A stretch of 64,000 nucleotides of DNA from Knoellia sinensis KCTC 19936. Lineage in GTDB: Bacteria; Actinomycetota; Actinomycetes; Actinomycetales; Dermatophilaceae. Under the pieces are notes generated by a model. That model saw nothing but the letters and a program-made list of their open reading frames with translations, did no database searches and was not told the DNA's origin. Location of the stretch: contig NZ_AVPJ01000008.1 in assembly GCF_000768705.1 (NCBI RefSeq), positions 1-64,000 of the forward strand, written 5' to 3'. A program made the translations under genes and the position numbers. Shown piece after piece: positions 6,342 to 51,403 of the stretch (positions are counted from its first letter, which is position 1; each line of letters starts with the position of its first letter).

Positions 6342-6419
6342 CCCGACTTTGTGCCCGATTGGGACACGGTCGTCGGCCGAAGGCCTCCTCAGCGTGTCCC
6401 AATCGGGCACAAAGTCGGG
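6342..6419. repeat. perfect 27-bp inverted repeat downstream of hpt
   Basis: Arms 6342-6368 and 6393-6419 are perfect reverse complements (core TTGTGCCCGATTGGGACAC), separated by a 24-base spacer that itself holds a smaller GGCCGAAGGCC dyad. It begins 3 bases beyond the hpt stop codon. On the hpt strand the stem is not followed by a T-run, so a classical intrinsic terminator is not supported; transcript-end stabilisation or a REP-like element are alternatives. One GTATGCC word lies 37 bases further on, at 6305. Confidence 0.85.
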
Positions 6420-7230: not shown

Positions 7231-8196
7231 TCAGGTCGGCGGAGAGAGGTCTCCGAGGAATGCCTCGGCCGCCTCCGTGCGGAAATAGAGCAGCGAGCGG
7301 CCGTCACGGATACTCGCGACGAGGCCGACGTCGCGCAGCCAGCGCAGTTGCTGGTTCGCCGCGGAGACACTGATCCCGCGCCTCGATGCCACGGTCGTGC
7401 TCGACATGGGCTCGCGCAGATTCACCAGCAGGGTGGCACGCGTGTCACCGAGAAGTCGGGCGGCGCGCTCCGGCGCGGCGTCGGGCAGCGCGAGCCGACC
7501 CCGACCGAGTGCCGGATAGAGGATGTAGGGCGGTGCCTCGGCATTGAACGGGTACGACGCGTGAGGCGTGAAGTGGGTCGGGACGAACACGAGCCCGCGC
7601 CCGCGCGCGTCGGCCTCGAAGTGCGGACCACTCGGGTTCCAGGCGTGGATCTCCTTGCCCTCGAGCGTCAGTGCCGGACTCAGCCCGCTCAGCATGGGAC
7701 GCAGCCCGATGCGCGTACTCGTCACTGCCCGGATGGTGATGTCGCCCGACAGGTTCGCGTGCATGGGGCTCCACCACGGCCGCACACACTGCACCCAGTA
7801 CTCGTCGAGAGCACGAACGATGCGATCGAGGACCCGGCCAGTCGGTCCGACGAGTGCTGCTGGACGCCCGCTCGGATAGAGGTCGTCGAGGTCCCGCTCG
7901 ACGATCCGCACCGGCAGCCGCGAGACCGTGAGGAGCTCCGCGTCGAAGTCGGTCGTGGCCGCGACGGGCCGCGGGTTGAGGAACTCCGGTGTCGAGTAGT
8001 CCGGCGCCACGAGGGCCAGCAGCATCTCGAGGTCAACCCCCGCCAGACGACGCTCGATCTCCCGACGCCAGGGCGACATGTGGGGGTAGATCTCCGGACG
8101 CCACACGGCACGCAGCGACAGGGTCGTCTCACTGAGCGTCGAGATCCCGAAGGTCGCCATGGTGAGGTCGCGCTCGGCAATCCGATAGGTCACCAT
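7231..8196 (-). CDS. ArsR-type winged-helix regulator with a large N-terminal domain (DUF5937-like)
   Basis: A 321-residue protein whose last 80 residues form an ArsR-type winged helix (a segment around LREPMSSTTVASRRGISVS followed by a recognition helix and a wing ending in LLYFRTEAAE). The first 230 residues match the layout of actinobacterial DUF5937 regulators, a putative ligand-binding domain of unknown specificity. The ATG at 8196 shares its A with the tilS stop (TGATG), implying translational coupling; a longer reading upstream would run through tilS and is rejected. This gene interrupts the usual tilS-hpt neighbourhood and looks like a later insertion. No target site is evident nearby. 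Confidence 0.8.
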   Translation of the reverse strand: MVTYRIAERDLTMATFGISTLSETTLSLRAVWRPEIYPHMSPWRREIERRLAGVDLEMLLALVAPDYSTPEFLNPRPVAATTDFDAELLTVSRLPVRIVERDLDDLYPSGRPAALVGPTGRVLDRIVRALDEYWVQCVRPWWSPMHANLSGDITIRAVTSTRIGLRPMLSGLSPALTLEGKEIHAWNPSGPHFEADARGRGLVFVPTHFTPHASYPFNAEAPPYILYPALGRGRLALPDAAPERAARLLGDTRATLLVNLREPMSSTTVASRRGISVSAANQQLRWLRDVGLVASIRDGRSLLYFRTEAAEAFLGDLSPPT

Positions 8197-9275
8197 CAGG
8201 GCTGCTCCCCGCCCGGTGAACTCGCCTGTGCCGCAATGACACCGGCCCGCCGTGTCACTGCAACTCGACCGGGCGCATGCACGGCTCCTTGTCCGTGCCA
8301 GTTCGTGATCAGGGCGTCGCACGCCTCCGTATGCCGTGCGCTCACCTGCCCTGCCGGCGCACCTGCCGAGATGAGGAGCCTTCTCCAGACCCGGGTCCGG
8401 ACGGCCCGGGGCAGGACCTTGAACGCCGCAACGTCCCACGGCCCGGCGCCGAGTTCCAACACGGCCTCGTCGGCCATCGCGTCGAGGGCGTCGGCGTCCT
8501 CACGAAGCTGATCGGCCGAACGCCCCAGTGCCGCAACGACTCCGGGCCCGAGGTCGGCCTCAAGGTCGGCGATGGCTCGCCGTGTCCGAACACGTGTGAA
8601 GGCCGGATCGTCGTTCATCGGGTCCTCCCACCAGGACACCCCTTCCGCATCCAACGACTCGCGGCATTCGAGGCGGGTCACTCCGAGAAGGGGTCGTCGG
8701 AAGATGCCGCGGGCGGACGGCATACCGGAGAGGGAACGGGCACCGGACCCGCGAACGAGACCGAGGAGCACCTGTTCGGCCTGGTCGTCGAGGGTGTGAC
8801 CCAGCAGGACCACCGCGGCGCCGAGCCGCTCTGCTGCACCGGTCAACGCGGCATACCGGGCATCCCGCGCGGCGGCCTCAAGCCCAGAACCGCTCTCCGA
8901 CACCGCAGCTCGCTCGACCACGACTGGATCCAGTCCGAGGTCACGGCAGCGTTGGGCCGTGAGTTCGGCAACCTGGGCCGACCCGACCTGCAGGCCGTGG
9001 TCGACGACGACAGCCCCACCCCGCCACGGGGCATGCCGCTGCTGGTGTGCGACCGCCTCCGCGAGCGCCATGGAGTCCCCACCACCCGAGCACGCCACCA
9101 GCACCAGAGGTCTTCCCCCCGTACCGAACTCACCCAATTGGACGGTTGGGGACACGACCCGCCCGTCCCCAACCGTCCAATTGGGTGAGTTCGGTACGGG
9201 ACCGGGTGAGAGGTCTGCGAGAGCCGCGCGGACGGCATACCGGATCTTTGCCGTGGAGGGATGCGGACCGGACAC
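8196..9275 (-). CDS. tilS: tRNA(Ile)-lysidine synthetase carrying a palindrome-encoded insertion
   Basis: A 359-residue enzyme that converts the wobble cytidine of the AUA-reading tRNA-Ile to lysidine using ATP and lysine. The PP-loop SGGGDS is at residues 63-68, and HTLDDQAEQ later in the N-terminal domain is a family hallmark. GTG 9275 is the likely start; GTG/ATG codons up to 9305 remain possible. Residues 26-53, just before the strand leading to the PP-loop, are encoded entirely by a perfect 83-bp palindrome (9118-9200) and match nothing expected in TilS. The reading frame stays open through it. The gene lies 40 bases after the zincin gene and is coupled to the regulator downstream. Confidence 0.92.
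   Translation of the reverse strand: MSGPHPSTAKIRYAVRAALADLSPGPVPNSPNWTVGDGRVVSPTVQLGEFGTGGRPLVLVACSGGGDSMALAEAVAHQQRHAPWRGGAVVVDHGLQVGSAQVAELTAQRCRDLGLDPVVVERAAVSESGSGLEAAARDARYAALTGAAERLGAAVVLLGHTLDDQAEQVLLGLVRGSGARSLSGMPSARGIFRRPLLGVTRLECRESLDAEGVSWWEDPMNDDPAFTRVRTRRAIADLEADLGPGVVAALGRSADQLREDADALDAMADEAVLELGAGPWDVAAFKVLPRAVRTRVWRRLLISAGAPAGQVSARHTEACDALITNWHGQGAVHAPGRVAVTRRAGVIAAQASSPGGEQP
9118..9200. repeat. perfect 36-bp-arm palindromic element inside tilS
   Basis: Arms 9118-9153 and 9165-9200 are exact reverse complements with an 11-base loop. Each arm contains GTACCGAACTCACCCAATTG followed by GACGG, a core that recurs twice as a direct repeat at 44408-44500. The element lies within the tilS coding region and is translated on the minus strand. 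No target-site duplication or transposase is visible, which suggests a non-autonomous REP-like or small inverted-repeat element. Confidence 0.95.
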
Positions 9276-9315
9276 GGCCCCAGCCTGCCAGCCACGGCCG
9301 GCCACGCAACCGCAC

Positions 9316-38499: not shown

Positions 38500-38548
38500 A
38501 CTGATTGCCCCTCACTGCACGGCCACCGTGCAGTGAGGGGCAATCAGT
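38500..38548 (+). terminator. perfect 23-bp hairpin after the acyl-CoA ligase gene
   Basis: Arms 38500-38522 and 38526-38548 are exact reverse complements (core CTGATTGCCCCTCACTGCAC) with a 3-base loop CCA, followed by CGTTTC. It starts 12 bases after the stop codon. It ends the SCP2/ligase transcript and, with the next palindrome, separates convergent genes. Confidence 0.85.
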
Positions 38549-38568: not shown

Positions 38569-38661
38569 GCGGCACGACACAGACGCCCCCGGTGGGGAGC
38601 GCTCAGTGGGCCCCTGATCCCACCGAGCGCCCTCCGCCGGGGGCGTCCGTGTCTGCTGCGG
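38569..38661 (-). terminator. long imperfect palindrome after the ABC-2 permease gene
   Basis: Left arm 38569-38610 and right arm 38619-38661 pair along about 40 bases with some mismatches: GCGCTCAGTGGG pairs against CCCACCGAGCGC, CCCCCGGTGGGG against its approximate complement, and an outer GCGGCACGACACAGACG block. It lies directly beside the permease stop (38663). It is unrelated in sequence to the adjacent hairpin at 38500-38548. Confidence 0.65.
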
Positions 38662-44407: not shown

Positions 44408-44500
44408 GTACCGAACTCACCCAATTGGACGGGTTCTGCACACGACGTGCCCTCCTGCCCGTACCGAACTCACCCAATTGGACGGGTGCTGCACACGGCG
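44408..44500 (+). repeat. 40-bp direct repeat sharing the tilS palindrome core
   Basis: Copies at 44408-44447 and 44461-44500 differ at 2 of 40 positions and begin 53 bases apart. Both start GTACCGAACTCACCCAATTG and continue GACGGG, the same first 25 bases as each arm of the palindrome in tilS. They lie just after the lipid kinase gene and before the promoter at 44505. No inverted partner is present here. Confidence 0.9.
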
Positions 44501-46938: not shown

Positions 46939-46953
46939 TGAGCCGTCACGCGA

Positions 46954-47008
46954 AAAAGCGAGATGCCCTGTATGCCGGCCACACGGCATACGGGGCATCT
47001 CGCCTTTT
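46954..47008. terminator. bidirectional terminator with GTATGCC in its stem
   Basis: AAAAGCGAGATGCCCTGTATGCCG (46954-46977) pairs with CGGCATACGGGGCATCTCGCCTTTT (46984-47008) around a 6-base loop. A-runs on the left and T-runs on the right give a U tract for either direction, fitting its place between the convergent LigB-like gene and the 98-residue membrane protein gene. Confidence 0.9.
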
Positions 47009-47012
47009 CGGG

Positions 47013-47309
47013 TCAGTGCTTGGGCTTGGGCTTGTTGCGTGGTGCCGGACGGGTCTCGTCGTCCGGTGGCCGCTCGACGTGGTCGGGGACAACGGTCGGG
47101 CGGGCCTTGGCCCAAGCCATGAACCCGGCCGCGACGACGAGGAGTGCGAGACCGGTCCAGAGGTTGGCGTTGACGCCGCCGGTCTTGTCGAGCTCCTTGT
47201 CACCGAACAGGCCCATGAGCGTGAGGATGATGCCGTAGAGCCCGAGGAGCAACCCGATGAAGTTGCGGATGTCGAAGGCTCCGGCGGTCTTCTTGGTCGT
47301 GTCTGACAT
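47013..47309 (-). CDS. small two-helix membrane protein, partner of the symporter
   Basis: A 98-residue protein with two membrane segments (about residues 18-34 and 50-66) joined by a loop with KELDKTGGVN, and a charged, proline-rich cytoplasmic tail (RPPDDETRPAPRNKPKPKH). It lies 12 bases downstream of the sodium:solute symporter gene and in the same direction. Many SSS transporters for organic acids have a small two-helix companion; the same is likely here, but I cannot name the family. The start ATG 47309 follows GGAGG. Terminator directly after the stop. Confidence 0.75.
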   Translation of the reverse strand: MSDTTKKTAGAFDIRNFIGLLLGLYGIILTLMGLFGDKELDKTGGVNANLWTGLALLVVAAGFMAWAKARPTVVPDHVERPPDDETRPAPRNKPKPKH

Positions 47310-51270: not shown

Positions 51271-51289
51271 CCCCTCCCCACCTGCGGCT

Positions 51290-51335
51290 AGCGTCCGCAA
51301 CATTGGTCACCAGAGCGACCAATGTTGCGGACGCT
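51290..51335 (+). terminator. perfect 19-bp hairpin after the reductase gene
   Basis: AGCGTCCGCAACATTGGTC (51290-51308) and GACCAATGTTGCGGACGCT (51317-51335) are exact complements with an 8-base loop and TTTC directly after. A degraded copy of the same sequence, GCGTCCGCAACTTTGGTCAC..., follows at 51354-51399, on the side of the convergent ABC exporter gene. A GTATGCC word lies between them (51339). Confidence 0.85.
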
Positions 51336-51403
51336 TTCGTATGCCGCCCGCTTGCGTCCGCAACTTTGGTCACCTGGGCGACCACACTCGCGGACGCAAC
51401 CCC

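Follow-up and report, generated by a model that had tools for sequence, protein, structure and literature searches.

The 64,000-nt stretch of Knoellia sinensis DNA analysed here (the window; its genome is designated G000) carries a minus-strand open reading frame (8196-9305) identified as tilS by NCBIfam and Pfam models (Table 1). The likely start of the gene is the GTG ending at 9275 because the TilS proteins of relatives in the genus start at VSGPHPS. Inside this essential gene lies a perfect palindrome of 83 bp (9118-9200), composed of two 36-nt arms that are 100% complementary and an 11-nt loop. A sequence-only reading of this DNA had described the same coordinates, arms, loop and in-frame position within tilS, and its assignment of the palindrome to TilS residues 26-53 is borne out by the start at 9275. 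Folded as RNA, the 83 nt reach -79.3 kcal/mol (z = -13.2), a stability equaled by 0 of 200 dinucleotide shuffles. Further long inverted repeats lie between or near genes of the window (38500-38548, 38576-38653, 46941-47020, and 51286-51402).

Table 1. Genes and repeat features of the window discussed in the text
Feature	Coordinates	Strand	Basis
Class B inverted repeat with perfect arms of 27 nt, in the space separating ftsH from the next gene	6342..6419	.	
tilS (tRNA(Ile)-lysidine synthetase)	8196..9275	-	TIGR02432 (E 3e-42), PF01171, PF09179; start from relatives; open frame to 9305
Left palindrome arm	9118..9153	+	class A unit 9121-9153 (+) inside; covariance model 45.2 bits
Spacer between the two class A units, 11 nt	9154..9164	.	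sequence
Right palindrome arm	9165..9200	-	class A unit 9165-9197 (-) inside; covariance model 45.2 bits
Second class A place, two direct units between predicted genes	44408..44493	+	

Two oppositely oriented copies of a 33-bp hairpin-type unit, termed class A and with the sequence GT(A/C)CCGAACTCACCCAATTGGACGGTTNGGNAC, make up the palindrome. Class A units occur singly, as direct arrays, or in inverted pairs. A BLAST search of the 83 bp against their own genome gives 203 matches, and one with the surrounding 161 bp gives 211; the genomic places are fewer than the matches because a palindrome matches both strands. The unit was defined by reading 32 stretches around listed genome places. Selection by core yields 133 units from these stretches and the window together, of which 118 are distinct with flanks. 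Each spans 32-33 bp, with a 14-15-nt core, TCRCC-n-AATT-nnnCG, between two 9-nt arms; in 22 of the 118 distinct units the core is TCACCGAATTCCTCG instead. The terminal GT and AC are mutually paired in 87-95% of these 118 units and a C precedes the GT in 81%, so that CGT(A/C) is present yet forms part of the stem, unlike an unpaired GTAG or CGTC end tag. One of the six reading frames is closed in every unit, whereas the other five are open in 116-133 of the 133, and such an insert can therefore be translated. Matches to Rfam microRNA families fall below the gathering scores and were taken as chance matches of a long stem.

Inverted pairs number 45 in five genomes, and in 30 of them the unit centers are 42-44 bp apart. 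The two units of a doublet are more alike than units of different loci in G000, G003, and G005, which does not hold for G001 and G004. Among ten doublets in the G000 loci, that in tilS alone is perfect. Long perfect inverted repeats can be assembly artefacts produced by a fold-back read, and the singular perfection of the tilS doublet would agree with such an origin. However, the frame is open, there are many copies elsewhere, and a different palindrome occupies the tilS site in G003, a genome assembled as one contig, which renders misassembly highly improbable.

The TilS protein of the window is 30 residues longer than its counterpart with an empty site in G006. In an AlphaFold2 model based on 37 sequences (mean pLDDT 90.4), the insert appears as a low-confidence loop ahead of the PP-loop strand, between a helix at residues 6-18 and a strand at 57-61. 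On the best explanation, the insert adds about 30 residues as a loop between the first TilS helix and the PP-loop strand and leaves the catalytic domain intact; the enzyme presumably stays active.

A covariance model built from 19 units of seven genomes finds class A units in all nine genomes of the genus, with 7 to at least 154 hits each at E ≤ 0.1 (at most 150 candidates were scored per genome, and the counts of 154 and 143 are lower bounds). A search of 149 genomes of the family under stricter filters matches 18, namely the nine of the genus and nine of the 140 others, the latter with 1-3 hits each and a best score of 38.8 bits. The spelling of the unit is particular to each genome, with variation within the genome; examples are GTCCCCAACTCGCCAATTCCCCCGTTGGGCAC in G001, GTCCCGAACTCGCCAATTCCTCCCCTCCGGGAC in G003, GTGCACAACTCGCCAATTCCTCCCGTTCGGCAC in G004, and GTGCGTTTCTCACCCAATTCCCCCGAAATGCAC in G005. 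These spellings derive from 60 stretches and six earlier loci of the four genomes, in which 125 of 136 model hits were counted; the other 11 were cut at a contig end (2), lay opposite a listed hit on the other strand (5), or scored low (4). Related unit types are common to several species. Because alignment A1 consisted of units selected for pairing, covariation of the arms was retested on core-chosen units. In these, the arms pair at 6.35-7.07 of 9 positions versus 2.65 in random windows. When arms are swapped between genomes, pairing falls clearly for G005 and less regularly for the others, with some pairs unchanged. Compensatory arm changes are thus well established in G005 alone.

Three protein sites hold inserts in more than one genome of the genus. 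The tilS site is filled in four of the nine genomes (G000, G001, G003, and G005; the G001 contig starts inside the insert) and empty in five. The four inserts differ in sequence, and each resembles the units of its own genome. A second site is the linker of an ABC transporter, where extra residues of differing sequence follow PDHP in all nine genomes. Class A units are recognizable in this linker in G000, G001, G002, G003, G004, and G005, G006 and G008 carry a class B palindrome, and G007 has a short remnant-like stretch. Insertion at the linker is presumed rather than seen, as an empty site was found in none of the nine genomes. The class B repeat between ftsH and its neighbor in the window is of the same type as the linker inserts of G006 and G008, judged by the common GACTnnnTGCCCnnTTGGGAC pattern. 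The third site is a gamma-glutamyltransferase loop. Four genomes have an insert there (G000, G002, G003, and G007, the last with a degenerate one), and the site is empty in the other five.

These data support the proposal of the sequence-only reading that a small inverted-repeat element was inserted and is tolerated as a protein extension: the segment is missing from TilS in five of the nine genus genomes, the 36-bp arm recurs at many places in the genome including a few within other genes, and the structural model places the insert in a low-confidence loop. Two points go beyond that reading, namely that a 33-bp unit is present twice in the 83 bp and that three sister species have palindromes of their own at the tilS site. 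As an RNA hairpin, the palindrome could alternatively regulate tilS by slowing ribosomes or tuning its expression. The high stability of the hairpin would suit such a function, but five of the nine genomes have a tilS without the hairpin and the class A unit lies at many unrelated places, which makes this role very unlikely.

At the tilS site of G013, a member of another genus, the insert is a low-complexity repeat and was rejected as a palindrome. In G018, also of another genus, the insert at this site (L034, 1555-1662) folds into a long imperfect hairpin. Palindromes may thus be accepted at the tilS site in other genera as well.

The occupied sites could also be older than the species that carry them: filled once in an ancestor, with the copies rewritten genome by genome through gene conversion and the empty tilS and transferase sites representing losses. 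Occupancy of the ABC linker throughout the genus, the match of inserts to the units of their own genome, and the sharing of related unit types by several species are all consistent with this history. On the other hand, two of the nine linkers hold an unrelated class B palindrome, which argues against ancestral filling followed by conversion. In a tree of three proteins, moreover, genomes with a filled tilS stand beside empty ones (G000 versus its sister G006, and G003 versus its sister G007), a scatter that speaks against ancestral filling, with several supports in this tree below 80. A single ancestral filling is accordingly possible, although repeated insertion is favored. The class B units at the shared linker favor repeated insertion and the full occupancy of that linker favors the rewriting of older inserts; the two processes may both act.

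Class A units lie mostly in intergenic space and behind genes. The 44 clusters in the G000 stretches comprise 15 between convergent genes, 13 and 10 between co-directional genes, one between divergent genes, one at an edge, and four in or overlapping genes. The gene caller missed tilS, and moving its cluster by hand changes the co-directional count from 13 to 12 and the in-gene count from 4 to 5; other clusters labeled intergenic may hold similar errors. The 64 clusters in the stretches of four sister genomes are distributed alike: 27 lie between convergent genes, 17 and 9 between co-directional genes, one between divergent genes, four at edges, and six in predicted genes. Two of these six in-gene clusters lie at the end of the protein, and in G000 further class A units extend or end proteins. 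A palindromic unit of 33 bp, within the 20-40 bp of REPs in the broad sense, that has many copies per genome and is mostly intergenic, between convergent or co-directional and rarely divergent genes, has the characters of a REP, and the class A pairs correspond to the inverted REP doublets of REPINs.

Spread of the unit could alternatively be driven by selection of sites if it were a double-stranded binding site of a chromosome-organizing or regulatory protein, the coding copies being incidental. The preference of inverted units for a spacing of 42-44 bp and of direct units for one of 64-66 bp, a period of 10.75 bp in 109 spacings, and the fixed offsets of a GTATGCCG motif from the units all point in this direction. 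However, the helical phasing, strong at first, is lost when similar spacers are merged and the two dominant spacing peaks taken out (R 0.146, n 20), and in-frame copies within enzymes are a poor fit, so that a binding site is an improbable explanation.

The GTATGCCG motif occurs 44 times in the window versus 2.35 expected from base composition (for example at 9233-9240 on the minus strand, 12600, 12631, 46970, and 46984), and GTATGCCGT occurs 27 times versus 0.37 expected. In class A arrays of G000 and its sisters, the position of GTATGCCG relative to unit centers is -34 in 14 of 66 pairs and +30 to +32 in 19 of 66, with both on the same strand in 60 of 66. A GTATGCCG copy is kept at the same place in all nine ABC transporter and all nine gamma-glutamyltransferase genes of the genus (L156-L173). 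The 14-mer GGTATGCCGTCCGC is present 45-163 times per genome on both strands in the nine genus genomes, and its reversed control is absent. In the family-wide search, GTATGCCGTCC was found 240-620 times per genus genome versus 0-11 for the reversed control. It is near the control level in many other genera and enriched in some (226-358 in eight genomes of g74), and is therefore independent of the class A unit. The GTATGCCG motif resembles a DNA uptake sequence or a Chi-like motif.

Taken together, the class A unit is best read as a REP/REPIN-like, probably non-autonomous mobile repeat that works in the manner of the Rickettsia palindromic elements (RPEs). New sites would gain single units, inverted doublets with a short spacer, or tandem arrays, and some of these would settle within a protein loop that tolerates extra residues. 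Tolerant protein sites would be filled more than once, each species using its own spelling of the unit. That the unit moves we infer from filled versus empty sites; the mode of movement and a mobilizing enzyme are inferred as well. The RAYT transposase family (PF01797) is found in none of the nine genus genomes, and 5 of 14 control genomes are positive in the same search. Six genes between unit clusters were scanned and none is a transposase gene; they encode a glycine transporter, QRPTase, MOSC, aldolase, and MoaC domains and a small DUF559/MTES_1575-like protein. Target-site duplications, as expected of MITEs, show no excess in 39 inverted doublets, whose longest flanking repeat averages 4.15 nt versus 4.62 nt in random windows. 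The tilS doublet alone is flanked by an 8-nt direct repeat, which has a random rate of 1.8%; it was rejected as such a duplication, given the lack of any excess across the 39 doublets.

Protein-inserting repeats are best known from Rickettsia and Wolbachia, whose hosts are intracellular; the genus that carries the class A unit is free-living. The available text on RPEs and their Wolbachia counterparts describes several families of palindromes, 105-150 bp or so in the case of RPEs, that lie in frame in conserved protein genes of obligate intracellular alphaproteobacteria, are translated, and have an unknown mode of movement (PMC10969869, PMC2229807). Both RPEs and class A are palindromic repeats found in frame in conserved protein genes. 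In-frame insertion with an open frame is seen here, translation being predicted from that frame. Class A, however, is a 33-bp unit that lies mostly between genes of an actinobacterial genus. The comparison with RPEs made by the sequence-only reading thus holds for the mode of working but does not establish membership, as the unit, the host phylum, and the end tag differ.

CGTC-tagged REPs, which include RPE-4 and RPE-6, are described in the accessible part of their source as having 8-9-bp stems, 4-5-nt loops, and a CGTC end that stays unpaired; most are inverted dimers, intragenic copies occur, there is no dedicated transposase, and the five phyla given there do not include Actinomycetota (PMC3733652). 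Class A shares the short stem-loops, inverted dimers, intragenic copies, and, as far as searched, the lack of a dedicated transposase, and differs by its 14-15-nt core and paired GT/AC ends. REPINs are inverted doublets of REPs that RAYTs mobilize; their spacer is short, their sequences are particular to the genome, and they form clusters and tandem arrays (PMC3116915). All of these features of arrangement recur in class A, but the RAYT that serves REPINs has no counterpart by PF01797 in the nine genus genomes. The anatomy is thus REP/REPIN-like and the placement in proteins RPE-like, by analogy with the described systems.

Palindromes as such are not new in Actinomycetota because RepRanger counts REP-like sequences in three genomes of the phylum (PMC12306157). 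The accessible literature on palindromes of Knoellia, Intrasporangiaceae, and Dermatophilaceae and on actinobacterial REPINs, RAYTs, or intragenic REPs yielded no report of such elements. What is new here is the actinobacterial host, the species-own sequences, and the repeated use of the same protein sites. Tentatively, a class of mobile, RAYT-less palindromes of Actinomycetota, spelled in each species' own way, may return to the same few protein sites, given that one ABC linker holds class A units in some species and unrelated class B units in others. An unknown enzyme and recurrent, nearly site-specific settling in protein loops would then be implied. Since nine genomes of this genus can be compared, with sites both filled and empty and no RAYT, it becomes testable what moves RAYT-less REP-like repeats and why certain protein loops repeatedly take inserts.
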